A stretch of DNA of 40,612 nt from Ramlibacter sp. (GCA_028292105.1 JAQGMY010000303.1:1-40612), one strand, 5' to 3'. Positions 1 to 12,955 are shown, counted from the first letter of the stretch. The notes: generated by a model not told the origin, from the sequence alone. Numbers and translations are program-made.

Positions 1-1
1 G

Positions 2-1309
2 GTCACCTTCCACATCAACCGCACCGCCTGGGGCAGCAAGAAGCGGCGCGAGCTGCTGATGCAGATGCCGCTGTGCGTGCGCGAGTACTTCCCGGACAAC
101 TTCCGCGCTGCCTACCGGCAGAAGGCGCGGTGGGTCCTGGGCATCGGCCTGCAAAGCTGGGAGCAGATCAAATGGCGCGGTCGCAGCAACGCCGCGCGCT
201 ACCTGCTGCTGCACGACCGCAAGGGCGTGGTCACCTCGTTCGCCAGCATTCTGGCGTACATTCTTGTGCTGCATTTCATCCTCTTCCACATCGGCCTGGC
301 GACCGGGTGGTGGCACGCGTACTACCCGTCGCTGTTCCAGGAAGGCAGCATCTGGCGCAAGATGATCTACATCAACGCGTTCTTCCTCGCCCTGCGAGCG
401 GCGCACCGGGTGTACTTCACCACGGTCCTGTACGGCTGGGAACACGGGGTGATGTCGTTGCCGCGGATGGTGGTGGGCAACTTCGTCAACTGCATGGCCG
501 TGGCCCGCGCCTGGAAGATGTACCTGGGCTACCTGTTCAAGGGCAACCGCCTGGCCTGGGACAAGACCGCCCACGAATTCCCCTCCAGCACGCAGCTGGC
601 GCGCAAGCGCCAACGCCTGGGCGAACTGCTGCAGTCGTGGAACGCGGTGGACGAGGGCGCCATCCAGCGCGCCCTGGAGCAGAACGCCGGGGGCGAAGTG
701 CCGCTCGGCCGCGTGCTGGTCTCCAACGGCTGGCTGGACGAGGAGACGCTGGCCGAAGCCATCGCCTACCAGGCCGACCTGCCGCGGGCCCACCTGTCCG
801 CCGATCTGGTGCGCAAGCACGCCAAGGACATGCCGGTGGAACTGGCGGTGCGCCACCGCGCCATCCACATGGGCACGAACAAGAACAACCGGCCGATCCT
901 GGCAGTGACCAGTCCGCTGTCGGAAGCGGCCCTGGCGGAGATCACGCAGGGCATCGGCGCCGAGCCGGTGCAGCGGATTGCGCGCGAAGGCGAACTTGCC
1001 GTGGCGCTGCGGCTGCTGCGCGAGGACGGTGGTGACAGGGCCCCGGCGGTGCCCACCGGCCCCTTGCTGGGAGACATGCTGATCGAACGCGGGCTCCTGA
1101 GCCGGCACAAATTCGAAGGAGCCATGCAGGACTACAAACCTGCCCAGCACGGGCGCATCGGTGACTACCTGGTGGAATGCGGCGTCATCGGCCGCGAGGT
1201 GCTCGAGCAGGTGGTTGCCGAGCAGCGCAGCTTCTTCGCCCGCTCGGCCGAGAGACCCGAACAGAACCAGAGAGGATTCTTCGGCAAGCCTTCCGCGCAA
1301 CCCACATAA
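2..1309 (+). CDS. nfrB: NfrB-like processive glycosyltransferase with C-terminal MshEN c-di-GMP modules (5' partial)
   Basis: The frame is open from base 2, so the N-terminal catalytic part lies upstream; the ORF-track start at 59 is an internal Met. The visible part begins near the end of a GT2 catalytic domain, with a QxxRW-type motif (QKARW, near nt 121-135), followed by hydrophobic segments (FASILAYILVLHFILF and MIYINAFFLALRA) that should be membrane helices. After nt ~600 comes a soluble tail with MshEN-type signatures: PLGRVLVSNG...Q, LLGDMLIERG and RIGDYLVECG...Q. In E. coli NfrB, a GT2 inner-membrane synthase with this kind of domain, c-di-GMP binding turns on synthesis of a surface glycan used by phage N4 (established knowledge). 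The next genes are NfrA-like and YbcH-like in the same order, which supports the call. The sugar substrate cannot be read from this fragment. Confidence 0.86.
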   Translation, partial: VTFHINRTAWGSKKRRELLMQMPLCVREYFPDNFRAAYRQKARWVLGIGLQSWEQIKWRGRSNAARYLLLHDRKGVVTSFASILAYILVLHFILFHIGLATGWWHAYYPSLFQEGSIWRKMIYINAFFLALRAAHRVYFTTVLYGWEHGVMSLPRMVVGNFVNCMAVARAWKMYLGYLFKGNRLAWDKTAHEFPSSTQLARKRQRLGELLQSWNAVDEGAIQRALEQNAGGEVPLGRVLVSNGWLDEETLAEAIAYQADLPRAHLSADLVRKHAKDMPVELAVRHRAIHMGTNKNNRPILAVTSPLSEAALAEITQGIGAEPVQRIAREGELAVALRLLREDGGDRAPAVPTGPLLGDMLIERGLLSRHKFEGAMQDYKPAQHGRIGDYLVECGVIGREVLEQVVAEQRSFFARSAERPEQNQRGFFGKPSAQPT

Positions 1310-1332
1310 GAGGATCTTCCTCGACAACGACC

Positions 1333-3657
1333 ATGAAACAAGAACAACGAAAGGCGCTGGCCCTGGCCGCCGCGCTTGCGCTTTCCTCCTTCCATGCGGC
1401 AGCGCAGACCGGGCCCAGGGGCGCAGCGGCGGCGCGCGGCGCCCACCAGGCCGCCCAGACGGCGAACAGCGCCGCCGACGCCGGCTACAAGGCTTATGCA
1501 AGGCGCGACTATGCGGCGGCCGTGGCGAACGCGCAGCGGGCCGTGCAGCTCGCCCCGGCCAGGCGCGACTACTGGCTGCTGCTGGCGCAGGCGCAAGCCG
1601 GCAACGGCCAGCCCGAACAGGCCGAGCAATCCCTGGTCCGCGCCGCGCAAGTATCGGGCGACGACGGCGCGCTGGCCCGCGCACGCACGGACCTCGGACG
1701 GCAACGGGCGCAGGTCGCGGGCGACGCCATGTACAAGGCCTTGCAGGCTGGCGATGTCAAAGCCGCCATAGCGGCCGGCACGGACGCGGTCCGCTTCGCG
1801 CCGGAGAACGCCGGCTTCCGCCTGGTGCTGGTGCATGCCTTGCTGCGCGACGGCCGCTTTGCCGATGCGGATCGCGTCGCCAACGAAACCATCGCCCTGC
1901 TGCCGGACAGCGCCGCGCCCCTGGCGCTGCGCGGCTACGCGCGCCAGGGCCTGAACCGCTCGGCCGACGCTGCGGCGGACCTGGACCGTGCCCTGCAACA
2001 GCGCGGCGTGCAGCCGGCGTCCCAGCGCCAGCTGCGGCTGCTGGCCGCCGACCTGGCGCTGGCGCAAGGCAACGGCGCCCGCGCCGTCGAACTGTTGCAG
2101 GCCTTGCCGGCCGACGACGCCGACGCCGCCGGCCGGCGCGAAATCGCGCGGCAAGCGCTCGCCGCGCCGGGGAGCCCCACCACCTTCGCGCTGCGCGCGC
2201 CCGGCATCGATTGCTCGAACGTCGACGCCTCCCAGACCTGCACGCTGCAGGCGGCGGCGGTGCCTGCGCTGCCCGGCTTCGCGAACGCCACCGCTGCCTA
2301 CCGCGCGCTGGAAGAGCGCGACGTCCAGCGCGCCCTGGCGCAAGCGCGCCTGGCGACCGCGGCGGCGCCGGGCCAGCGCGACTGGCAGCTGATGCACATG
2401 AACGCGGCGTTGGCCGCGGGCGAGAACGCCGAAGCGGAACGCGCGGCGAGCGCTGCCCTGGCGCTCTCGTCCGACGCCCCCCTGCTGGCGCAGCGCTCAT
2501 CGATCCGCCGCGGCCTGGGCAACACGGCCGGGGCCAATGCCGATGCCGAGGCTGCACTGGCGGCCGGCGGACTGCCGGTGACGACCGAGGCCGCGCTGCT
2601 GGCCGACCTCGGCCGCACGCGCGAGGCCCGCAACCGCCTCGCCACCGCACCGGCGGACGCGGGCACGCCACAAAACCGGCTCGACGCCGCCTACCTGTCC
2701 ACCCGCATCGGCGACACCGAAGCGGCCCGCCAGTCGTTCGCGGCGGCGGACGCCGGCGGCGGCCTGCCGGCCACCTCGCTGCTGGACGCCGGCTACGCGG
2801 CCATGCACAGCAAGCACGATGACGAGGCCCTGCAGTACTTCAAGCGCGCCATCGACGCGGCCAACGGCCTGCAGCTCAAGATGGAGCCGCAGATGTTGTA
2901 CGACACCCGCCGCACCGTGGCCGACCTGACGCGCAAGTGGGGCGTGCTGGCTTCCGTCACGCTGCGCAACGGCGCCGGCATCGCACCCGGCTTCGGCAAC
3001 ATCAACGGCAGCGGCAGCGGGCGCGTCACCCAGGCCGGCGTCGAGGGCTACTACCGTCCCTGGGGCTACCGCAACGGCGAGTTCGTCGAGTTGTTCGCCC
3101 GCGGCTTCATGACGCTGAACGACCAGAACAACGGCCTGACCGGCGGCGAGAGCTTCCAGGGCGGCGTGGGCGTGCGCTGGAAACCGATCTCGGCGCAGAA
3201 CCTGGTGCTGTCCTTCAGCCGCGTGTTCGGCCCCAACGTCAACGACGACTGGCTGGCCCAGGTCGGCTACTCGTGGGACACCGGCAACGACCTGCGCGTG
3301 GACGGCACGCCGAGCTGGTGGACCGCCCGCTTCTACGCGGAAGTCGGTCGCTATCTCGACGCCGGCAACAACTACGGCATCGCTTCGCTGATGGCGGGCC
3401 GCAGCTACCTGCTGGGCGGCGATGGCCGCACGGTGCTGTTCCCGCACGCTTTCGTCGGCGTGGAATACAGCTCGAACGACCCGTCGGCCAAGACCTCCGC
3501 GGGCATCGGCCCGGGTGTCAGCGTGCGGCGCTGGTTCCGCGACGACGTGTACAACGCACCCCGCTCGTACTGGGACCTGACGCTGCAGTACCGCGCCAGG
3601 CTCAGCGGCGATGACCGCATGAAGGGCCTGTTCGTGAACGGCCTGCTGTCGTACTGA
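1333..3657 (+). CDS. nfrA: NfrA-like TPR outer-membrane protein
   Basis: A 774-residue protein when started at ATG 1333, which gives a classic signal peptide (MKQEQRKALALAAALALSSFHAAAQ). The ORF-track start at 1177 lies inside nfrB and adds non-secretory sequence, so I rejected it. Residues ~40-540 are Ala/Leu/Arg-rich helical repeats of TPR type (for example AYKAYARRDYAAAVANAQRAVQLAP-like units). Residues ~550-774 match the NfrA C-terminal domain in style, with aromatic, Gly-rich beta segments such as GYYRPWGYRNGEFVELFARG and VGYSWDTGNDLRVDGTPSWW. By analogy with E. coli NfrA it should form the outer-membrane export or docking component for the glycan made by NfrB. The gene starts 23 bp after nfrB. 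A GAGGATCTTCCTC mini-hairpin (1310-1322) covers the only Shine-Dalgarno-like AGAGGA, and spacing to the ATG is long. Confidence 0.85.
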   Translation: MKQEQRKALALAAALALSSFHAAAQTGPRGAAAARGAHQAAQTANSAADAGYKAYARRDYAAAVANAQRAVQLAPARRDYWLLLAQAQAGNGQPEQAEQSLVRAAQVSGDDGALARARTDLGRQRAQVAGDAMYKALQAGDVKAAIAAGTDAVRFAPENAGFRLVLVHALLRDGRFADADRVANETIALLPDSAAPLALRGYARQGLNRSADAAADLDRALQQRGVQPASQRQLRLLAADLALAQGNGARAVELLQALPADDADAAGRREIARQALAAPGSPTTFALRAPGIDCSNVDASQTCTLQAAAVPALPGFANATAAYRALEERDVQRALAQARLATAAAPGQRDWQLMHMNAALAAGENAEAERAASAALALSSDAPLLAQRSSIRRGLGNTAGANADAEAALAAGGLPVTTEAALLADLGRTREARNRLATAPADAGTPQNRLDAAYLSTRIGDTEAARQSFAAADAGGGLPATSLLDAGYAAMHSKHDDEALQYFKRAIDAANGLQLKMEPQMLYDTRRTVADLTRKWGVLASVTLRNGAGIAPGFGNINGSGSGRVTQAGVEGYYRPWGYRNGEFVELFARGFMTLNDQNNGLTGGESFQGGVGVRWKPISAQNLVLSFSRVFGPNVNDDWLAQVGYSWDTGNDLRVDGTPSWWTARFYAEVGRYLDAGNNYGIASLMAGRSYLLGGDGRTVLFPHAFVGVEYSSNDPSAKTSAGIGPGVSVRRWFRDDVYNAPRSYWDLTLQYRARLSGDDRMKGLFVNGLLSY

Positions 3658-3659
3658 CG

Positions 3660-4493
3660 ATGCCGCGTTTCTTCAGCGGCCTGGTGCTGGCCGCCGCATT
3701 GGTTTCCGGCTGCGCATCCACCACCGTGCCACCCATCGAGGGGGTGGTCTGGCAGATCGACAACGAGCACACCGAGCCGCGCGGCGACTGGGACAAGCTG
3801 GGCGTGCGCAGCCTGCTGGTGCAGTGGACGGTGGTGGACAACCTGGCCTTCGTCGGCGGCACCGACCTGCCGGCCGGCGCGAAGATGCCGGACTGGCAAG
3901 CCATCGCCAGGCAGCCCTGGGCGACCGAGGTGATCGTCGGGCTGGCCGGGCGCTTCGACGAGCGCGGCGCGCGCGGTGACCTCGAGGGCCTGGTGCAGCT
4001 GTCGGCCAAGGTGGCCAGGACGCCGCCGCCGGTCAACGTGGCCGGCTATTACTTCCCGATCGAGATCGATCCGACCTGGATGGAGGCCTACCGCCTGCGC
4101 ACGTTGCTGGCGCAGCTGCCGCGGCCGTTGTGGATCAGCGTTTACGACAGCGCCAACGTCGGGCCGGAGGAACTCGCGCAGAGCCTGACGGAGTGGCTGC
4201 CGCCCGACGTCGGCGTCTTCTTCCAGGACGGCGTCGGCGTGCATGCACGCACGGCTTTCGTCGCGCGCCACTACACGAATGTGCTGGTGCGCCGGCTCGG
4301 CCGCGATCGCGTCCGCGTCATCGCCGAGGCGTTTCGGCCACAGGTGGGTGGCGGCTTCAGGCCGGCCACGCTCGAGGAGCTGCGGCCGCAACTCGCGGCG
4401 TACGACGGGATTCCGATCTACCTGTTCGAGGGGCCGCGCTATGTCCCTCCCGAAACCGTCAACGGGCTCGCAGCCGTCCAGAGACAGCCGTAG
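3660..4493 (+). CDS. YbcH-like lipoprotein (DUF4434-type putative glycosidase fold)
   Basis: 277 residues, starting only 2 bp after the nfrA stop, so it is the third gene of the operon. The N-terminus is a lipoprotein signal (LVLAAALVSGCAS, lipobox VSGC). The mature part reads like a TIM-barrel glycosidase-type domain: GVVWQIDNEHTEPRGDW, LLVQWTVVDNLAFVGG, VAGYYFPIEIDPTWME, LPRPLWISVYDSAN, LPPDVGVFFQDGVGV. In E. coli the nfrB-nfrA operon is followed by ybcH, a DUF4434-family protein of similar size (established knowledge), and gene order here is the same. A role in trimming or modifying the exported glycan is inference; I cannot assign catalytic acids with certainty, although conserved-looking acidic residues sit in EIDPTWME and FFQDG. 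Confidence 0.72.
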   Translation: MPRFFSGLVLAAALVSGCASTTVPPIEGVVWQIDNEHTEPRGDWDKLGVRSLLVQWTVVDNLAFVGGTDLPAGAKMPDWQAIARQPWATEVIVGLAGRFDERGARGDLEGLVQLSAKVARTPPPVNVAGYYFPIEIDPTWMEAYRLRTLLAQLPRPLWISVYDSANVGPEELAQSLTEWLPPDVGVFFQDGVGVHARTAFVARHYTNVLVRRLGRDRVRVIAEAFRPQVGGGFRPATLEELRPQLAAYDGIPIYLFEGPRYVPPETVNGLAAVQRQP

Positions 4494-4505
4494 GTTTTGT
4501 CCTAC
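4490..4505. promoter_or_regulatory. GTAGG-N6-CCTAC inverted repeat at the end of the ybcH-like gene
   Basis: GTAGG (4490-4494), six bases, CCTAC (4501-4505), overlapping the stop codon of the lipoprotein gene and lying 63 bp before the FimV-like start. The same arms and the same spacing occur at 10372-10387. It could be an operator or a weak hairpin; no T-tract follows. A second TCCTAC sits at 4523-4528. Confidence 0.4.
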
Positions 4506-4567
4506 AAGGCATGCGCAGCATTTCCTACCCGTGCGCTTCTGCCGAGCTTCGTACAGTTGGTAAGCCC

Positions 4568-6610
4568 ATGAAAAAACTGCTTACGATTGGCTCGACCTTG
4601 GCAGTGCCCGCATTGCTGGGATGCTGGGCCTGTGCCTTCGCCCAGTCGCTCGGCACCCCGGCCGCCACGGCCTGGATCGGCCGGCCGCTGGAGATGACGG
4701 TGCCGGCCCGTTTCGCCAGCGGCGAGGCGCGCGACGACTGCGTGCACGCGGACGTCTTCTACGGCGAGAACCGCTTGCGCCGCGACCAGGTCCGCACCTC
4801 CGTGATCGGTGGTGAGGACGCCCGCCGGGTGCGCATCGAAGTGGCGGCGACCATCGACGAGCCGATCGTCACGGTCTCGGTGCGCGCGGGCTGCAGCAAC
4901 ACCATCACGCGCAATTACACGCTGTTGCCTGAAATGCCCTCGGAACAGATGCTTGCAGGCATCGTCCGGCCGGCGGCGCAAGCCACGCCCGCAGCGCATG
5001 CGGCGGCCAATGCGCTGGGTGCGGCGGCCACCCCGGCGCCGCTGCGCATGTCCGGCCTCGGGTCGGCACGGGCGCCGGCGGTGCGGCCTGCGCTGGCGAT
5101 GCGCGACGACCGCATGCCCCGCGCGCGGATGACCAGGAGCCTGCGCGCCACCGACAGCATCGGCAGCCCGCGCCTGAAGCTGGAGCCCTTCGAGCCCGAT
5201 CGCCAGACCCTGCTGCGCGTGAGCGCCACCTTGTCCGACCCCATGGGCGACGTCGGCCGGCGCGCGACCGCAGCCTTGCTCTGGCAGGCGATCAACGCCG
5301 ACCCGACCGAGCTGCTGCGGACCACGGCGATGATCCAGAAGCTGGAAGGCGACCTGGCTTCCCTGCGCCAGTCCGCCAGCCAGACCCGCGCCGAGATGGC
5401 CGCCCTGCGCCGACGCGTCGAAGACATCGGCCCCTGGTACGCCAGCGCTGCCGCGCTCCAGGTGCTGGCCCTGCTGGTGCTGGTCGCCGCAGCGGCTGCC
5501 GGGACCGTCTGGTACCGCACGCGCCGCGCCGGACGGTCGATGGATCCCTGGTATTCACCGTCGCCCGATTCGGTGCTGGATTCGCAACTCGACCCCACCC
5601 TGGACGCGCGCGATGAGCCCGCCCGGACGGCCGCGGCGCCCGAGCCGTCGCGGCCGCAGCCGCAGCCACACCGGGTGCCGGCATCACAGCCACGCCCCGC
5701 CCCGTTGGTGGTCGAGCCATCGATCGTGTTCGAGTTTCCGCGTGCCCCCGCCGAGATCAGCGCACCTGTGGTGCCCCGCGTCGTCTCCGCGCCCGCGGCC
5801 GTGCCGGCCCAACGCGGCCCGATCGCGTTCGAGGTGCCGCTGCAGGCGGACAAGCCGCGCCGCAGCACCCCACGCGGGGTGCTGCGTGTCGAGACGCTGG
5901 CAGCCACCTTCGAGGAAGTGGAATTCCTGTCTTCGCTCGGCGTCCCGGCCGATGCGATGGACGTTCTCAAGAGCTACCTGGAAGCCACGGCGAACCCGGC
6001 GCCCCTGGCTTTTTTCGAGCTGATGCGCCTGAGCGAAAGCGAAGGCGACCAGGCGGCCATCGCCGCGGTCCGCCGCCGCTACACGCAGGTGTACGGGCTG
6101 GAGCCGCCGACGGTCGAACAGTTGACCGCGCCGCTGAGCCTGGACAGCCTGCCGGACCTGAGTGCGCGCATCACTGCCGCATGGGGCCGCAGGGTCGCGC
6201 TGGACATCATCGAGCAGGCCCTGTTCAGCGTGCCGGCCCCGGGCGCGGCGCTCACGCTGCAGGCCGGCCGCGACCTGATCTGCCTGTATGACGTCGCCAT
6301 GACGCTGGTGGCCGAGGGCGCAGGCGGCGCGGCAGTGCCCAACGGCGAGCCGGAGCCCCATCCGCTCGCCCCCTGGGCCAATGCCGACGACCCGGGCGGC
6401 GCCCTGATGGCGATAGAGGCCGCAGGCGAAGCCCGCGCGGACGCGCACTTCGGGCTGGACTTCGACCTCGACACCCCGGCCGAACCGGAAAGCGACAATC
6501 CCTTCGCCCATCTGCAGCTCGAACCGTTGCCGGATGTGCTGCCCGCAACCGCGAGCCGCGAGGACGACGCCTTCAGCGCCGCCATGGCCTCCGAGCGCTC
6601 GCGCTACTAG
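4568..6610 (+). CDS. FimV-like membrane protein without LysM domain
   Basis: 680 residues from ATG 4568, which gives a signal peptide (MKKLLTIGSTLAVPALLGCWACAFAQ). The longer track ORF (from 4130) overlaps the lipoprotein gene and is rejected. After the signal comes a beta-rich domain resembling the FimV/HubP N-terminal region (GTPAATAWIGRPLEMTVP, a CVHADVFYGE segment, two Cys). A Pro/Ala linker and a coiled coil (IQKLEGDLASLRQSASQT, ~255-288) precede one membrane helix (~290-315, LQVLALLVLVAAAAAGTVWY). The cytoplasmic side is a long Pro/Arg-rich stretch, then a helical module (EVEFLSSLGVPADAMDVLKSYLEA, ~447-510) of the FimV C-terminal/TPR type. FimV/HubP proteins organise cell poles, type IV pili and c-di-GMP/cAMP signalling. 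I find no LysM repeat between the N-terminal domain and the helix. It sits between the glycan operon and an EAL protein, so a scaffold role is plausible inference. Confidence 0.7.
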   Translation: MKKLLTIGSTLAVPALLGCWACAFAQSLGTPAATAWIGRPLEMTVPARFASGEARDDCVHADVFYGENRLRRDQVRTSVIGGEDARRVRIEVAATIDEPIVTVSVRAGCSNTITRNYTLLPEMPSEQMLAGIVRPAAQATPAAHAAANALGAAATPAPLRMSGLGSARAPAVRPALAMRDDRMPRARMTRSLRATDSIGSPRLKLEPFEPDRQTLLRVSATLSDPMGDVGRRATAALLWQAINADPTELLRTTAMIQKLEGDLASLRQSASQTRAEMAALRRRVEDIGPWYASAAALQVLALLVLVAAAAAGTVWYRTRRAGRSMDPWYSPSPDSVLDSQLDPTLDARDEPARTAAAPEPSRPQPQPHRVPASQPRPAPLVVEPSIVFEFPRAPAEISAPVVPRVVSAPAAVPAQRGPIAFEVPLQADKPRRSTPRGVLRVETLAATFEEVEFLSSLGVPADAMDVLKSYLEATANPAPLAFFELMRLSESEGDQAAIAAVRRRYTQVYGLEPPTVEQLTAPLSLDSLPDLSARITAAWGRRVALDIIEQALFSVPAPGAALTLQAGRDLICLYDVAMTLVAEGAGGAAVPNGEPEPHPLAPWANADDPGGALMAIEAAGEARADAHFGLDFDLDTPAEPESDNPFAHLQLEPLPDVLPATASREDDAFSAAMASERSRY

Positions 6611-6629
6611 GACGAGGGACAGCCAAACG

Positions 6630-8522
6630 ATGTCCTCGATGCAGCCGAGATCCAAGAACCGGGACGCGTCGGCCCTGTTGCTGGAAGCCGACCCCGACGT
6701 GCTGCCTGACCGATCGCTGGCCGGCTCGCGGCCGGCCTGGCTGTATACCGCGGCCCTGCATCCGGCCGACGAAGCGCAGCGGCTCACCGAGCTGCGTGGT
6801 TTCTCGATCCTCGACACCGACCCGGACGACGACTACGACCGGCTGGTGCAGCTCGCGGCAGTGCTCTGCGGCGCACCGATGGCGGCACTGACCTTCGTGG
6901 ACGCCAACCGCCAGTGGTACAAGTCGCGCGTCGGCGTGCCGGTGCAGCAGTTGCCGCGCGAGAAGTCCTTCTGCGCCCATGCCATCCTCGATGCGGATCG
7001 CACGCTGGAGATCCCGGACGTCGCCAAGCTGGGATGGGCCGACCCGCAACCCTGGGGTGGCAGCGGCCCCATGCTGGGCTTCTATGCGGGCGTGCCCCTG
7101 CGCACCCGCGACGGCAGCGCGATCGGCACCTTGTGCGTGATGGACCAGGTGGCGCGCCGGCTGACGGACAGCCAGCGCGACGGCCTGGAGAAGCTCGCCA
7201 AGGCGGTGGCCAGCCAGCTGACGCTGCGGCGCCAGTTGCGCATCGCCACCGAGACCGACCGCCTGACCGGGCTGCCGAACTGGTTCCACTTCGAAGCGGA
7301 GTTCGACCACAACAAGCCGGATTGCGGCATGGTGTGCTTCGTCCGGCTGAAGACCATCAACCAGATCAATTCCGCGCATGGCTTCCGGGTGGCCGACAGC
7401 CTGATCAAGCAGACCGCCGACCGGCTGCGCTTCTTCGGCGACCGCGGCGCCTTCATCGGGCGCATCAAGCGCGGGCTGTTCATCCTGTTCTTCCCGCAGG
7501 CACGGCCCGACGAGTTCCTGCGCGCGCTGGCGCCCCAGCTCGCGGGCAGCCTCGCCAGTCCCTACGAAGTCAACGACCTGTCGCTGGTCTGCCCGGTCAA
7601 CCTGGGCTTCGCTTCGTTCCCGGACGACGGCAAGACGCTGGACGAGGTGGTGAACGCGGCGGACGCCGCGCTGCAGGTCGCGATCGAGCGCGAGCAGCCG
7701 ATGGCCTTCTTCGACCGCACCGTCGACAACGTCCAGAGCCTGCATTTCCGGCTGGAACCGCAGTTGCGGCGGGCGCTGGAGAAGAGCGAATTCGTCAACT
7801 ACTACCAGCCGAAGGTGGAACTCTCCACCGGCCGCATCGTCGGTGTCGAAGCGCTGGTGCGCTGGATGGATCCGACCCGCGGGCTGGTGCCGCCGGGCGA
7901 GTTCGTCCCGGCGCTGGAAACCACCGACCTGATCGGGGAAGTGGCGCAGAAGATCATGGAGCGCGCCATCGACGACTGGCGCAGCTGGCGCGACGCCGGC
8001 CTGGTGGCGCCGCGCATCGCCGTCAACGTCGCGGCCGCGCAGTTGCGCAACGAAGATTTCGTGCCCGCCCTCGAGCGGGCGCTGCAGGTGCTGGACGGCG
8101 ACCCCTCCGCCATCGGCATCGAAGTGACGGAAAGCATCCTGATCTCGAACATGGAGCGCGCCATCGAGGTGCTGCAGCAGGTGAGGGCGCTCGGCGTGCC
8201 GGTGGCCATCGACGATTTCGGCACCGGCTACTCCTCGCTCGCCTACATCGTCACGCTGCCGATCGACGAACTCAAGATCGATCGCGCCTTCGTCAAGAAG
8301 ATCACCTCCGACCCGGCGTACGAGGGCATCGTGCGCACCTGCGTCTCGCTGGCGCGCGGCCTCAACCTGAAGGTGGTGGCCGAAGGCGTGGAAACCGAGG
8401 CGCAGGCGGACAAGCTGCGCGACCTGGCCTGTGACCAGGCGCAGGGCTTCTTCTACAGCCCGCCGGTGCCGGCCGACCAGCTGGTGCGGATGCTCAAGGA
8501 GCAGCCCTTCGAGCGGCCCTGA
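6630..8522 (+). CDS. GAF / degenerate GGDEF / EAL c-di-GMP phosphodiesterase
   Basis: 630 residues from ATG 6630, 19 bp after the FimV-like gene; the track start at 6534 is inside that gene. Order: GAF (~45-195, with ILDTDPDDDYDRLVQLAAVLCG and REKSFCAHAIL), GGDEF-like (~208-370) and EAL (~385-625). The diguanylate cyclase signature is gone: the loop reads RIKRGLF where R-x-GGDEF is expected, so cyclase activity is unlikely. The EAL domain keeps its key features: VEALVRW (E407), EVTES, IDDFGTGYSSL, KIDRAFV and AEGVETEAQ, so c-di-GMP hydrolysis is expected. The GAF resembles those with a small ligand or redox signal, but no ligand can be named. Neighbours upstream include an NfrB with c-di-GMP-binding modules, so this enzyme may act as its local off-switch (inference). 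Confidence 0.9.
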   Translation: MSSMQPRSKNRDASALLLEADPDVLPDRSLAGSRPAWLYTAALHPADEAQRLTELRGFSILDTDPDDDYDRLVQLAAVLCGAPMAALTFVDANRQWYKSRVGVPVQQLPREKSFCAHAILDADRTLEIPDVAKLGWADPQPWGGSGPMLGFYAGVPLRTRDGSAIGTLCVMDQVARRLTDSQRDGLEKLAKAVASQLTLRRQLRIATETDRLTGLPNWFHFEAEFDHNKPDCGMVCFVRLKTINQINSAHGFRVADSLIKQTADRLRFFGDRGAFIGRIKRGLFILFFPQARPDEFLRALAPQLAGSLASPYEVNDLSLVCPVNLGFASFPDDGKTLDEVVNAADAALQVAIEREQPMAFFDRTVDNVQSLHFRLEPQLRRALEKSEFVNYYQPKVELSTGRIVGVEALVRWMDPTRGLVPPGEFVPALETTDLIGEVAQKIMERAIDDWRSWRDAGLVAPRIAVNVAAAQLRNEDFVPALERALQVLDGDPSAIGIEVTESILISNMERAIEVLQQVRALGVPVAIDDFGTGYSSLAYIVTLPIDELKIDRAFVKKITSDPAYEGIVRTCVSLARGLNLKVVAEGVETEAQADKLRDLACDQAQGFFYSPPVPADQLVRMLKEQPFERP

Positions 8523-8538
8523 CAGCGGCGGCAGCAGG

Positions 8539-8566
8539 AAAAAGGGGCGCCGAGGCGCCCCTTTTC
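8539..8566. terminator. Bidirectional intrinsic terminator
   Basis: A GC-rich stem (GGGGCGCC / GGCGCCCC, tight loop) flanked by A5 on one side and T4 on the other. It lies 16 bp after the EAL gene and 20 bp after the minus-strand gene ending at 8586, so it can serve both convergent transcripts. Confidence 0.9.
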
Positions 8567-8585
8567 CGCTCGCGCACGCTCTCCC

Positions 8586-9860
8586 TCAGACGATCTTCAC
8601 CAGCTCGAACAGCACGGTCGGCGGCAGTTCGACGCTCAGTTGTTCGCGGCCCACCTTGGGGGTTTCGAAGCGGTCGAAGCCGCTCAGGTGGAACGACGGC
8701 AGCTCGCGGGTGATCTCCACCAGCGGGCAGCGCTCTTCGCCGCCGAGCACTTCGGCGCGGAACTTGGCCACGTCCTCGGCTTCGACGTCGTAGGCGGTCA
8801 CCAGTACGTTCGGCCGCGTGTCGCCGATCACTTCACGGGCGTTCGCGATGTCGGTGGCGGCGGCCGCGTCGATGCCCATCTTGCGCAGCGCGTCCACGGC
8901 CTCGGTGCGGATCACCGGGTCCTTCGCGATCACCAGCACCCAGCTTTCACGCAGCGTCTCGCCGTTGCTGCCGGTGTCTTCGGTCAGCTCCAGGCAGGCC
9001 ATGCCGTCGCCGCTGGTGAAGGTCTTGGGAAAGCCGATCGTGAGCAGGGCGGCGCCCTCGGCGCGGGTGCGCGCCAGTTCCAGGCTCGACGACGCAGCGA
9101 TCTGGCGCAGCATCATCCAGTGCAGGCCGTCGTTGAGGCGGCGGCCGCGCGGGCGGGCCGTCCAGCCGACGCCGCCGGGATGCGCCGCGTTCGCCGGGGG
9201 CGGGGTGGTGACGCGCACCCGCAGCTGCGCCGGCCCGGGCCACTCGGAAGGCACCAGCGTGAAGTGCAGCTGCTTGCTGAAGCTGGTGGCCCAGTCGAGG
9301 ATGCTGTTGACGAGGCTGATCGCCACCGGCGGGTCGAGCAGGACGTCCACGCCCTGCAGTTCGGTGGTGACGGAGACGCCGGCGGCTTCCAGTTCCTTGG
9401 CACGGTCGTCCACCACGTGGCGCACCAGCTCCGCCAGGTCGACGCGCTCGCGCGCCTGGCGGATGCGGCCGCTGGCCAGGCGGGTGATCTGCTGCGCGCG
9501 CAGGCTGGTGCCGCGCAACTGGTGCATGGCGTCGCTCAGGGCCTTGGCCTCGCTGCGGCGCAGGCGCCCGGCGCCGACCAGGTAATTCAGGGCCCGCAGC
9601 AGCAGGTTGCTGCTTTCCACCGCCTGTTCCGACAAGGCGGCGACCAGGTTCGGCCATTGCTGCGTCATCGACCAGGGCGCGTTCGGGTCCGCGATCTGGG
9701 CGCCGGAGCCATCCGACCAGCGGCGGCCGCTGATCGTGCCCGCCGGCGTAGCGGCGGTGGCCGGGGCCACCGGCTGCACCGGCGGCAGCGCAACGTCGGC
9801 GGCGGCCTGCTTGGACTCTTCGACGAGCCAGTGCGAGGGATATTCGATGGTGTTGCTCAT
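8586..9860 (-). CDS. Degenerate histidine-kinase-like protein with C-terminal pseudo-receiver
   Basis: 424 residues; ATG 9860 is well supported by GGAGG six bases upstream. After a Pro/Ala-rich N-terminus, residues ~85-160 look like a DHp helical hairpin (KALSDAMHQLRGTSLRAQQI, then ARERVDLAELVRHVVDDRA, a typical kinase linker to the ATPase domain). The following ~170 residues follow an HATPase layout (AISLVNSILDWATSFSKQ, then RLNDGLHWMMLRQIAASS), but I see no convincing N-box asparagine or G1/G2 glycine motifs. The last ~115 residues (SWVLVIAKDPVIRTEAVDALRKMG) have receiver-like spacing, yet the strand that should end in the phospho-accepting Asp reads PNVLVTAYDVE. The likely role is a phosphorelay adaptor or regulator rather than an active kinase (inference). 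Its start overlaps the receiver gene by 4 bp, so the two are co-translated. Confidence 0.62.
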   Translation of the reverse strand: MSNTIEYPSHWLVEESKQAAADVALPPVQPVAPATAATPAGTISGRRWSDGSGAQIADPNAPWSMTQQWPNLVAALSEQAVESSNLLLRALNYLVGAGRLRRSEAKALSDAMHQLRGTSLRAQQITRLASGRIRQARERVDLAELVRHVVDDRAKELEAAGVSVTTELQGVDVLLDPPVAISLVNSILDWATSFSKQLHFTLVPSEWPGPAQLRVRVTTPPPANAAHPGGVGWTARPRGRRLNDGLHWMMLRQIAASSSLELARTRAEGAALLTIGFPKTFTSGDGMACLELTEDTGSNGETLRESWVLVIAKDPVIRTEAVDALRKMGIDAAAATDIANAREVIGDTRPNVLVTAYDVEAEDVAKFRAEVLGGEERCPLVEITRELPSFHLSGFDRFETPKVGREQLSVELPPTVLFELVKIV

Positions 9861-10291
9861 GCGGGGCCTCCGGTGGGGTGTTCAGGTGCGAGGGCGGCGA
9901 GCGCCCCGTGTCGGGAGCACTGGTGGGAACAGTAGTCGACCAGGGCGTCGATTTCGGTGGACTTGTCGAAGACCGCGTCCACGCCGAGCTGGGCACAGCG
10001 CTTGCGCACGCTCGGATTCACGTAGTTGCTGAAGACGATGATCTTCTGCTGCGTCCTGGCGCGCTGCACGCGCTGCATCAGCCGCATGCCGCTGCCGCCC
10101 TTGAGGAACAGGTCCACGATCAACATGTCCCATTGGGCATTGGCGGCGAGCCATTCCAGCGCGCCTTCCTCGGTCGCGGCGCCGCCCACGACCTTGATGC
10201 AGGTCAGTTCCTCGAGCGCCCCCACGAGGTTCTCCTGGATCTCGGCGTTGTCCTCGACGACGAAAGCTGCGAGTTGCACGAAGGGGCTCAA
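9857..10291 (-). CDS. Stand-alone CheY-like receiver protein
   Basis: 144 residues of REC domain with no output domain. The phosphorylation site is intact: acidic pair E13/D14 (VVEDN), phospho-acceptor D60 (MLIVDLF), Ser in IIVFSNY, and Lys in VFDKS (K110). The start used is a TTG at 10291; an in-frame GTG at 10279 would also keep the fold, and neither has a strong ribosome site. It ends with a 4-bp overlap into the degenerate kinase-like gene, forming a two-gene unit. The C-terminal ~25 residues carry three Cys/His (CSHQCSRH), unusual for a receiver. Its cognate kinase is not obvious; the two kinase-like proteins nearby both look degenerate. Divergent from the PAS-GGDEF-EAL gene, so it may feed c-di-GMP output (inference). 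Confidence 0.85.
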   Translation of the reverse strand: MSPFVQLAAFVVEDNAEIQENLVGALEELTCIKVVGGAATEEGALEWLAANAQWDMLIVDLFLKGGSGMRLMQRVQRARTQQKIIVFSNYVNPSVRKRCAQLGVDAVFDKSTEIDALVDYCSHQCSRHGALAALAPEHPTGGPA

Positions 10292-10371
10292 TCCGTAAGG
10301 TTCGGTTTCAAGGCGTAAGGCACTCTAGCCCTGCCGCAACAATCACCTCTCGGATGCGCACGCGTTTGCGT

Positions 10372-10387
10372 GTAGGAGGATGCCTAC
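10372..10387. promoter_or_regulatory. Second GTAGG-N6-CCTAC inverted repeat in a divergent intergenic region
   Basis: GTAGG (10372-10376), six bases, CCTAC (10383-10387), between the receiver gene (minus strand) and the PAS-GGDEF-EAL gene (plus strand). It has exactly the same arms and spacer length as the copy at 4490-4505. A position 81 bp from one start and 85 bp from the other suits a shared operator, but this is only a pattern call. Confidence 0.4.
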
Positions 10388-10471
10388 GACTGATCACATG
10401 GCAGATCAATGCGAACTACGCCACACACGAGGAGGTATGGCGCACTTAAGATGCGCGCAAACAGGAAACGC

Positions 10472-12955
10472 ATGGATTCAGTGATCGCGCAAAACGCAGG
10501 CAAGCTGCTGGAGCTGGTGGAACGCAGTGCCTTCGTGGGCTTTTGGCGGCTGGACTCGCGCCGGGGCGAGCTCTACTGGTCCGAACAACTGGCAAGGCTG
10601 CACGGTGCACCACCCGGTTACAGCCCCAGTTTCGAGAACGCGCTAGGCCACTACGCGGAGGAACACCGCGCGGAGCTGCAGGCCCGCGTGCGCGCCTGTG
10701 AAGAGCAGGGCGTGCCCTTCGATGTAGAGGTGCAGGTCGAGGGGATGCAGGGTGGCGGCCGGGTCTGGGTGCGTTGTGTCGGCCAGCCGCTGCGCGACGA
10801 GGACGGCGCCATCATGGGCGCCGAGGGCCTGGTGCAGGAGATCGCGCCGGCCGGTTACGCGGCTGGCACGCTGCTGCGGCACACGGTCAGCATGGGCGGC
10901 GCCCAGGGCAGCGGCGAAGCCTTCATCACGATCGACAAGCAGGCGCGTGTCAGCTATGCGAACCAGCAGGCAGAGCAGCTGCTCGCCGGGACCGGCGAAC
11001 ACGTGACGGGCCGCAAGATCTGGAGCTTCTTCCAGAAGCGGGCCCGGCTGGCGCTCGAGGAACGCTTCATGCACGCGCTGGAGCGGCGCGAGGCGATCGA
11101 GTTCGAGGAACTCGACCAGCAGGTGACGCACTGGGTGGAGCTGCGCGGCTTTCCGTTCGGCGCCGGCATGGCGCTGCACGTGCGCGACGTTTCCGCGCGG
11201 CGCAAGCAGCAGCAGCACCTGATGCTGCTGGAAGGCAGCATCGCCCGTCTGAACGACATCGTCATCATCACCGAGGCCGCGCCGTTTCGCGCTCCGGGGC
11301 CGCGGATCGTGTTCGTCAACGACGCATTCGAACGCCGCACCGGCTACGCCCGCGAGGAAGTGATAGGGCAATCGCCGCGCTTCCTGCAGGGCGCCGACAC
11401 GCAGCGGGCGCAGCTCGATCGCATCCGCGCGGCACTGGAGCAGTGGGAGCGGGTGCGGGTCGACCTGATCAACTACACGAAGGCGGGCGAGCCGTACTGG
11501 GTCGACCTCGACGTCTCGCCGGTCTGGGACGAGGCCCGGCGGCTGACCCATTGGGTGGCGGTGGGCCGCGACATCACGGAGCGCAAGCGCGACGAAGAGA
11601 AGATCCAGTATCTGGCGTTCTACGACCCGCTGACGCAATTGCCCAACCGGCAGATGCTGCTGGATCGCCTGCACCAGGCGGTGGGCGAAAACGGCAGGGC
11701 GCGCGAGGGCGCGCTGATGTTCATCGACCTGGACAACTTCAAGGTGCTGAACGACACCCTGGGCCACCAGAAGGGCGACATGCTGCTGCAGCAGGTGGCG
11801 CGCCGGCTGCGCAACTGCGTGGCCAAGGGTGACCTGGTGGCGCGGCTGGGCGGCGACGAATTCGTCGTGCTGCTGGAGAACATGCCGGAAAAGCCGCTCG
11901 ACCCGCTGACCGCAGCGCAGAAGGTGAGCCAGCGCATCCTCGAAGGCCTGGGCGAGCCGTATGTGCTGCCGGGCTACCTGCACCACAGCACCTGCAGCAT
12001 CGGCGTGACCCTGTTCGGCCGCACGCCCTCGAGCGTCAACGAGTTGCTCAAGCAGGCCGACCTGGCGATGTACCAGGCGAAAGCCGCCGGACGCAATGCC
12101 GTGCGCTTTTTCGACCCGGAGATGCAGGCGGTCGCCACGGCGAACGCCGCCCTCGCCACGGACCTGCGCCAAGCCTGGCGCGACAACCACCTGAGGATCG
12201 AATACCAGCCGCAGGTCGGCATGGACGGCCGGATGACGGGCGTCGAAGCGCTGCTGCGCTGGGAGCACCCGACCCGCGGCATCGTGAATCCCGATCAGTT
12301 CATCCCGACGGCCGAAGAGACGTCGCTGATCATCCCGATCGGCCACTGGGTGCTCGAAGCGGCGTGCGCACAACTCGCGCTGTGGGCGCGGCGGCCGGAC
12401 CGCAGCCACCTGAGCATCGCCGTCAACGTGAGCGTGCGGCAGTTCCGCCATCCGGATTTCATCGACGACGTGATGACCTGCGTGCGCCGGGTGGGCGTGC
12501 CGGCGGACAAGCTGAAGCTGGAGCTCACCGAAAGCCTGCTGGCCGAGGGGCTGGACGTGACGGTGGCCAAGATGCGCAACCTCAAGGACATGGGCGTGCG
12601 CCTGTCGGTCGACGACTTCGGCATCGGCTATTCGTCGCTGTCATACCTGAAGCGCCTGCCGATCGACGAACTGAAGATCGACCGCGGCTTCATCAAGGAC
12701 ATCCTCACCGACAGCAACGATGCCGCCATCGCCGGCACCATCATCGGACTGTGCCGCAGCCTGGGCCTGGAGGTGATCGCCGAAGGCGTGGAGACGGAAG
12801 AACAGCGCGCCTTCCTGGCGCGCCAGGGCTGCCATCGCTACCAGGGCTACCTGTTTTGCCGGCCGCTGCCGATCGATGCGCTCGAAGCCTTCATCCAGAA
12901 GGGGGAGGTCGCCCCCTCGGGGATCACACCGGAACCATCTTCAGTGGTGACGTGA
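10472..12955 (+). CDS. PAS-PAS-PAS-GGDEF-EAL dual c-di-GMP protein
   Basis: About 827 residues. Start is ambiguous: ATG 10472 has AGGA five bases upstream; ATG 10451 and 10409 are in frame, and a strong GGAGG at 10431-10435 is awkwardly spaced for all of them. Three PAS-type sensors precede the catalytic parts (GFWRLDSRRGELYWSEQLAR; EAFITIDKQARVSYANQQAE; IVFVNDAFERRTGYAREEVIG, the last followed by a PAC motif). The GGDEF motif is intact (RLGGDEF, ~460-464), preceded by the usual DPLTQLPNRQ; the RxxD inhibitory site is absent because AKGD occupies that place. The EAL domain is also intact (VEALLRW, E592; ELTES; VDDFGIGYSSLSYL; KIDRGFI; AEGVETEEQ). Either or both activities are possible. No membrane segments, so it is cytoplasmic. 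The third PAS with NDAFERRTGY resembles flavin/LOV-like PAS, but the LOV cysteine motif NCRFLQ is replaced by SPRFLQ. Confidence 0.92.
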   Translation: MDSVIAQNAGKLLELVERSAFVGFWRLDSRRGELYWSEQLARLHGAPPGYSPSFENALGHYAEEHRAELQARVRACEEQGVPFDVEVQVEGMQGGGRVWVRCVGQPLRDEDGAIMGAEGLVQEIAPAGYAAGTLLRHTVSMGGAQGSGEAFITIDKQARVSYANQQAEQLLAGTGEHVTGRKIWSFFQKRARLALEERFMHALERREAIEFEELDQQVTHWVELRGFPFGAGMALHVRDVSARRKQQQHLMLLEGSIARLNDIVIITEAAPFRAPGPRIVFVNDAFERRTGYAREEVIGQSPRFLQGADTQRAQLDRIRAALEQWERVRVDLINYTKAGEPYWVDLDVSPVWDEARRLTHWVAVGRDITERKRDEEKIQYLAFYDPLTQLPNRQMLLDRLHQAVGENGRAREGALMFIDLDNFKVLNDTLGHQKGDMLLQQVARRLRNCVAKGDLVARLGGDEFVVLLENMPEKPLDPLTAAQKVSQRILEGLGEPYVLPGYLHHSTCSIGVTLFGRTPSSVNELLKQADLAMYQAKAAGRNAVRFFDPEMQAVATANAALATDLRQAWRDNHLRIEYQPQVGMDGRMTGVEALLRWEHPTRGIVNPDQFIPTAEETSLIIPIGHWVLEAACAQLALWARRPDRSHLSIAVNVSVRQFRHPDFIDDVMTCVRRVGVPADKLKLELTESLLAEGLDVTVAKMRNLKDMGVRLSVDDFGIGYSSLSYLKRLPIDELKIDRGFIKDILTDSNDAAIAGTIIGLCRSLGLEVIAEGVETEEQRAFLARQGCHRYQGYLFCRPLPIDALEAFIQKGEVAPSGITPEPSSVVT

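Follow-up and report, generated by a model that had tools for sequence, protein, structure and literature searches.

A FimV-like/EAL gene pair behind the nfr glycan genes of Ramlibacter: a separable partner with a conserved control region

In the soil bacterium Ramlibacter, genes encoding a FimV-like membrane protein and an EAL-domain protein regularly lie directly behind the nfr glycan genes and are a separable partner of the latter rather than an invariable component of a single operon. The window analyzed here, 40,612 nucleotides in length (GCA_028292105.1 JAQGMY010000303.1:1-40612), is a single contig of a fragmented Ramlibacter genome and carries five genes in a row on the plus strand, namely nfrB (partial), nfrA, a DUF4434 (ybcH-type) gene, the FimV-like gene, and a gene for a protein with GAF, degenerate GGDEF, and EAL domains. 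We consider it about an even chance (roughly 0.5) that the last two genes make up a scaffolded phosphodiesterase unit with a control region of its own, similar to HubP-PdeB, and placed beside NfrB as a possible off-switch.

Gene order and its conservation in Ramlibacter

Because the contig starts inside nfrB, the gene (2–1309, +) is incomplete and only the C-terminal 435 residues are encoded, comprising the last part of the glycosyltransferase domain (with QKARW), an MshEN c-di-GMP domain at approximately 614–1024, and another MshEN-like repeat near the C-terminus. The protein retains the QxxRW and MshEN c-di-GMP motifs (NF053729, 7.7e-21), and its N-terminal half lies off the contig; in a full-length relative (L034:4025-6196), the glycosyltransferase domain, TED, and QxxRW were all present. 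The next gene, nfrA (1333–3657, +), encodes a signal peptide, TPR repeats, and the NfrA_C outer-membrane domain (PF13283, 1.2e-42), and is followed by the DUF4434 gene (3660–4493, +), which is conserved in position and matched PF14488 (7.6e-07; 29.4 bits, slightly below the cut-off of 30) and NF007404 (8.5e-10). The FimV-like gene (4568–6610, +; 680 residues) and the EAL gene (6630–8522, +; 630 residues) come after gaps of exactly 74 and 19 bp, respectively, as the sequence-only reading of this DNA had given them. A strong terminator-like hairpin (8537–8567, +; z −3.4) closes the five-gene run between the EAL gene and a convergent sensor-like gene.

The likeness to E. coli seen in that reading is confirmed, as the three genes in the window are in the same order as those of the NfrBA-YbcH/NGR exopolysaccharide system, and the c-di-GMP-binding MshEN motif of NfrB is alike (PMC8669469, PMC8669472). 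Upstream of nfrB, the genomes possessing the nfr cluster carry a BcsB-like gene, a DUF2334 gene and, in most of them, a wecB-type gene; the wecB-type and bcsB-type genes have also been reported for other proteobacteria (PMC8669469, PMC8669472). Judged from these domains and motifs, the Ramlibacter nfr cluster is predicted to carry out c-di-GMP-activated glycan synthesis.

Our survey of the genus covered 60 Ramlibacter genomes, 16 of which contained a DUF4434 gene. The FimV-like gene was directly downstream of the DUF4434 gene in all 16, and the gene order of the locus is therefore conserved far beyond chance and is no peculiarity of a single strain, which would have spoken against a functional module. 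An EAL orthologue was detected in 15 of the 16 genomes, being the next gene wherever the contig extends that far (in G074 it was found at the end of another contig), and none was found in G026. A search of a named genome collection recovered 80 nfr loci, 13 of Ramlibacter/Caenimonas and 67 of others (including Polaromonas, Rhodoferax, Herbaspirillum, Massilia, Collimonas, Caballeronia, and Pseudomonas). The FimV-like gene was present in 13/13 of the former, while the FimV-like/EAL pair followed DUF4434 in none of the 67 loci outside the genus, and the stretch behind the nfr genes of G339, G158, and G178 likewise lacked the pair. Among the nfr loci covered, the adjacency is thus confined to Ramlibacter and is not a feature of Burkholderiales in general.

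The FimV-like protein and the EAL protein

The FimV-like protein had no Pfam match, and its matches to NCBIfam models were at the level of chance. Its residues are laid out as a signal peptide, a periplasmic Ig-like domain (28–125), a coiled coil (246–286), a transmembrane helix (approximately 294–324), an acidic Pro-rich linker, a cytoplasmic all-helical TPR-like domain (436–582), and an acidic tail. The AlphaFold2 model agreed with this plan (periplasmic beta domain, coiled coil, membrane helix, disordered linker, and helical cytoplasmic domain) with a whole-chain pLDDT of 62.8, and the cytoplasmic domain modelled alone gave a confident all-helical fold with a pLDDT of 92.5. The helical domain is acidic in all 16 members, with net charges ranging from −5 to −12.

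The Ig-like domain, which is a described part of FimV, aligned with the N-terminus of a true FimV with an hhalign probability of 91% (E = 1e-6, 110 columns), and the best Foldseek matches of the periplasmic domain were Ig-fold domains (E = 1.3e-3). The cytoplasmic side gave weaker similarity: a cytoplasmic segment of FimV was matched with an hhalign probability of 59%, and a Foldseek search of PDB with the cytoplasmic domain returned TPR proteins only, none of them significant (best E = 0.12). A sequence search of PDB with the FimV-like profile yielded nothing meaningful. Neither FimV_core, the periplasmic LysM model (TIGR03505), at E ≤ 1 nor the FimV_Cterm TPR domain (TIGR03504) was matched by any of the 16 members, whereas a true FimV used as a control matched both (6e-19 for FimV_core). 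As the two domains present in the control FimV are missing, the protein resembles FimV in its overall plan, but these tests place it outside the FimV/HubP family; the NCBIfam models reject membership despite the homologous N-terminal domain. The FimV-like label of the first reading is supported, the homology to FimV being genuine but partial. Seen from the FimV/HubP family (PMC12918733), what is shared comprises the Ig-like periplasmic domain, one membrane helix, an acidic cytoplasmic region, and a helical TPR-like domain, while TIGR03505 and TIGR03504 are what the Ramlibacter members lack.

The downstream protein matched the GAF (6.5e-06), GGDEF (1.1e-16), and EAL (4.1e-70) profiles. The GGDEF motif is replaced by KRGLF (7467–7481), which was invariant in 14/14 sequences, and so was the catalytic set of the EAL domain (EAL, N466, E498/E501, D528-D529, K549, E585, and Q605). 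Since the catalytic residues are invariant, the protein is predicted to be a c-di-GMP phosphodiesterase, in agreement with the initial description of a GAF-EAL enzyme with a dead GGDEF domain.

Beyond the hairpin lie the genes for a sensor-like protein of 424 aa (8586–9860, −), which adjoins that for a response regulator (9860–10291, −), and a PAS-GGDEF-EAL protein with both motifs intact (10409–12955, +). This block (8586–12955) and the EAL gene are conserved together, including in several Ramlibacter genomes that possess no nfr genes; the sensor-like and response-regulator genes often accompany the EAL gene there. The PAS-GGDEF-EAL protein is a candidate source of c-di-GMP near NfrB.

The control region and the separability of the pair from nfr

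The gap between the DUF4434 and FimV-like genes contains a conserved control region (4500–4557, +) that begins 6 nt past the DUF4434 stop codon and consists of TCCTACA (4500–4506), a 16-nt spacer, a second half-site TCCTAC (4523–4528), and a −10-like TACAGT (4552–4557). An unconstrained alignment of this gap had GTCCTACA in common in 14/14 rows. The pattern TCCTAC(A)-N16-TCYNAC, 66–69 nt 5' of the ATG, occurred in 16 of the 17 FimV-like loci, the remaining one (L033) having N15, and a TACAGT-like box lies approximately 10 nt ahead of the ATG. Most of the 16 nt vary freely, and the invariance of the six bases TCCTAC in the 17-locus count is partly built in, as the regular expression demanded them. 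Ramlibacter genomes contain 2–7 copies of the pattern each, versus 0–1 of the reversed pattern; among 79 other Burkholderiales genomes, a stricter form was present in 2. The element also lies ahead of the EAL gene of G015, a genome with neither nfr nor a FimV-like gene. The conserved element came from alignment; a scan of positions 1–9000 for the sigma-70 consensus detected no promoter-like site.

Based on this conservation, we infer that the FimV-like/EAL unit has its own promoter. The sequence-only reading, according to which the nfr locus runs straight into the FimV-like gene and which took separate promoters as evidence against itself, is not supported at this point, given the conserved control region and candidate promoter in the 74-bp gap. 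No terminator was found in the gap, and therefore read-through from nfr into the FimV-like gene may occur. The element represents a genus-specific regulatory signal that is open to direct testing. Its other recurrent sites (L079-L108) lie ahead of genes for small hydrophilic proteins near hpf, a 240-residue protein of no known family, a beta-barrel-like protein, and a small protein beside a NUDIX-like gene; no regulator candidate stood out near two recurrent sites, and a literature search on the TCCTACA motif found nothing relevant.

The pair and nfr are also inherited apart. Three genomes (G021, which is 100% complete, G071, and G017) possess the FimV-like and EAL genes, with the conserved control region, in the absence of NfrB, NfrA, and DUF4434; we excluded G072 from this set, since it has no DUF4434 gene but carries, at the edge of a contig, NfrB and part of NfrA. 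Six further genomes retain the EAL gene with neither nfr nor an intact FimV-like gene: the latter was not detected in G082, G015, G025, and G009, while G081 has a 199-residue remnant and G075 a partial match. Conversely, in the 100% complete genome of R. alkalitolerans (G026), nfr and a FimV-like gene are retained but an EAL orthologue was not detected; its FimV-like protein (L043:17205-18644) lacks the whole periplasmic Ig-like domain. Taken together, G026 and the six genomes indicate that no partner is obligatory. In both the EAL and FimV-like trees, the copies from nfr-less genomes were nested within the nfr-bearing group in two places, which would most simply mean that nfr was lost at least twice while the pair stayed in place. 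A branch with support of 97/98 separated the 17 EAL-linked FimV-like copies from 28 unlinked paralogues, which are mostly found in a different conserved neighbourhood. A paralogous FimV-like protein that is widespread in the family (L041-L060, L113-L115) is encoded between 3-hydroxyacyl-CoA dehydrogenase and transporter genes in many genomes.

Alternatively, the neighbourhood could be an accident, in which nfr settled between the cco cytochrome oxidase genes and an old EAL/sensor-regulator/PAS-GGDEF-EAL locus, and the genes share descent but not function. Consistent with this, several species have this locus where both nfr and an intact FimV-like gene are missing. The cco genes immediately precede the FimV-like gene in G021 and G071, and in G011, G061, G067, and G028 they lie ahead of the nfr cluster. 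Nevertheless, only three nfr-less genomes bear a full-length EAL-linked FimV-like gene while every nfr-bearing genome has a FimV-like gene, and the adjacency has persisted despite the divergence of the FimV-like protein to 28–54% identity. We regard an accidental neighbourhood as doubtful.

The proposal that the five genes form a single nfrB-nfrA-ybcH-fimVlike-EAL operon, a dedicated, self-contained, and locally controlled glycan module, is only partly supported. The common strand, the short gaps, the genus-wide adjacency of the FimV-like gene, and the lack of a detected terminator in the 74-bp gap are all in its favor, as is the concentration of full-length EAL-linked FimV-like genes in nfr-bearing genomes. 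The module is, however, broken by the control element ahead of the FimV-like gene and by separate inheritance, with the pair present without nfr in three genomes and nfr without EAL in G026, and so a single operon appears unlikely to us. That the FimV-like protein is instead an envelope adaptor (for the cell wall or glycan export) serving NfrA/DUF4434 and unrelated to the EAL enzyme would suit its periplasmic Ig-like domain and coiled coil and its fast divergence, which is expected of an envelope protein, but is quite improbable, as three nfr-less genomes keep the gene together with that for the EAL enzyme, the nfr-bearing G026 has lost the Ig-like domain, and the cytoplasmic domain is retained in the 17 EAL-linked copies, which group together.

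A possible off-switch beside NfrB

We thus favor the reading of a scaffolded phosphodiesterase unit. The FimV-like and EAL genes would act as a two-gene unit under their own control region, directly behind the nfr cluster of wecB-type, DUF2334, bcsB-like, nfrB, nfrA, and DUF4434 genes. The FimV-like protein would be an inner-membrane scaffold whose acidic helical domain probably serves to recruit or activate the EAL enzyme, as HubP does PdeB, perhaps in contact with the inactive GGDEF domain. The tethered phosphodiesterase would lower c-di-GMP and, beside NfrB, oppose glycan synthesis when both are made; as the pair has a control element of its own, which other Ramlibacter genes share, it can be timed differently from nfrBA. 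Where nfr is absent, the pair could serve other c-di-GMP targets. The binding of the EAL enzyme by the FimV-like protein and the choice of NfrB as the target are suggested by analogy with known systems. Some observations point the other way: the charge of the degenerate GGDEF domain is close to neutral or weakly acidic, where the comparison with PdeB would expect a clearly basic one, and therefore lends no added support to an interaction with the FimV-like protein; the cytoplasmic domain has no significant match in PDB; and the partners are not obligatory.

A close precedent is Shewanella putrefaciens PdeB, a phosphodiesterase with an inactive GGDEF domain that is placed and activated by the FimV domain of HubP (PMC9061725). 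Both systems combine a FimV-type membrane scaffold with an EAL phosphodiesterase bearing an inactive GGDEF domain. HubP, the canonical polar landmark, has a LysM and a FimV C-terminal domain (PMC9061725), neither of which is matched by the Ramlibacter scaffold, and, unlike in HubP-PdeB, the Ramlibacter scaffold gene adjoins that of its putative partner enzyme. The cytoplasmic region of Pseudomonas aeruginosa FimV likewise binds and controls a c-di-GMP enzyme, DgcP (PMC7033161), but this enzyme is a synthase and the FimV is canonical. In the literature we searched, there was no FimV-like gene beside nfr and no work joining Nfr and FimV. FimV-type scaffolds that bind c-di-GMP enzymes, in contrast, are already known.

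E. coli NfrB is switched on by c-di-GMP from the bound synthase DgcJ (PMC8669469, PMC8669472) and is among the clearest cases in the open question of how c-di-GMP signals are locally confined. The E. coli locus contains no FimV-like or EAL gene, DgcJ being encoded elsewhere, and the extra gene reported in pseudomonad nfr operons is a GGDEF (synthase) gene in contrast to the EAL (degradation) gene of Ramlibacter (PMC8669469, PMC8669472). We tentatively suggest that a single Ramlibacter locus carries both a c-di-GMP-activated synthase and a separately timed off-switch, the latter built on a shorter version of a FimV-like scaffold, driven by its own promoter specific to the genus, and equivalent, on the degradation side, to the GGDEF gene in those operons. 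If the scaffold and the EAL enzyme do act on NfrB, the locus would be a small genetic model whose activated synthase and removal arm can each be deleted without the other. That the parts are separable is already evident from natural losses, of nfr from beside the pair and of EAL from beside nfr, and any model of local control must account for this.

NfrB itself is not confined to one contig in the genome bin of the window. Two further nfrB fragments were found at contig ends (G000:C63:2-1390, L031; G000:C26:4-1650, L032). The former contig overlaps the first 525 bp of the window with 90% identity and extends upstream through bcsB-like, DUF2334, and wecB-type genes, and is perhaps the contig of a near relative. 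The nfrB on the latter is more distant (68%), and a second nfrB was also found in G011 (64%).
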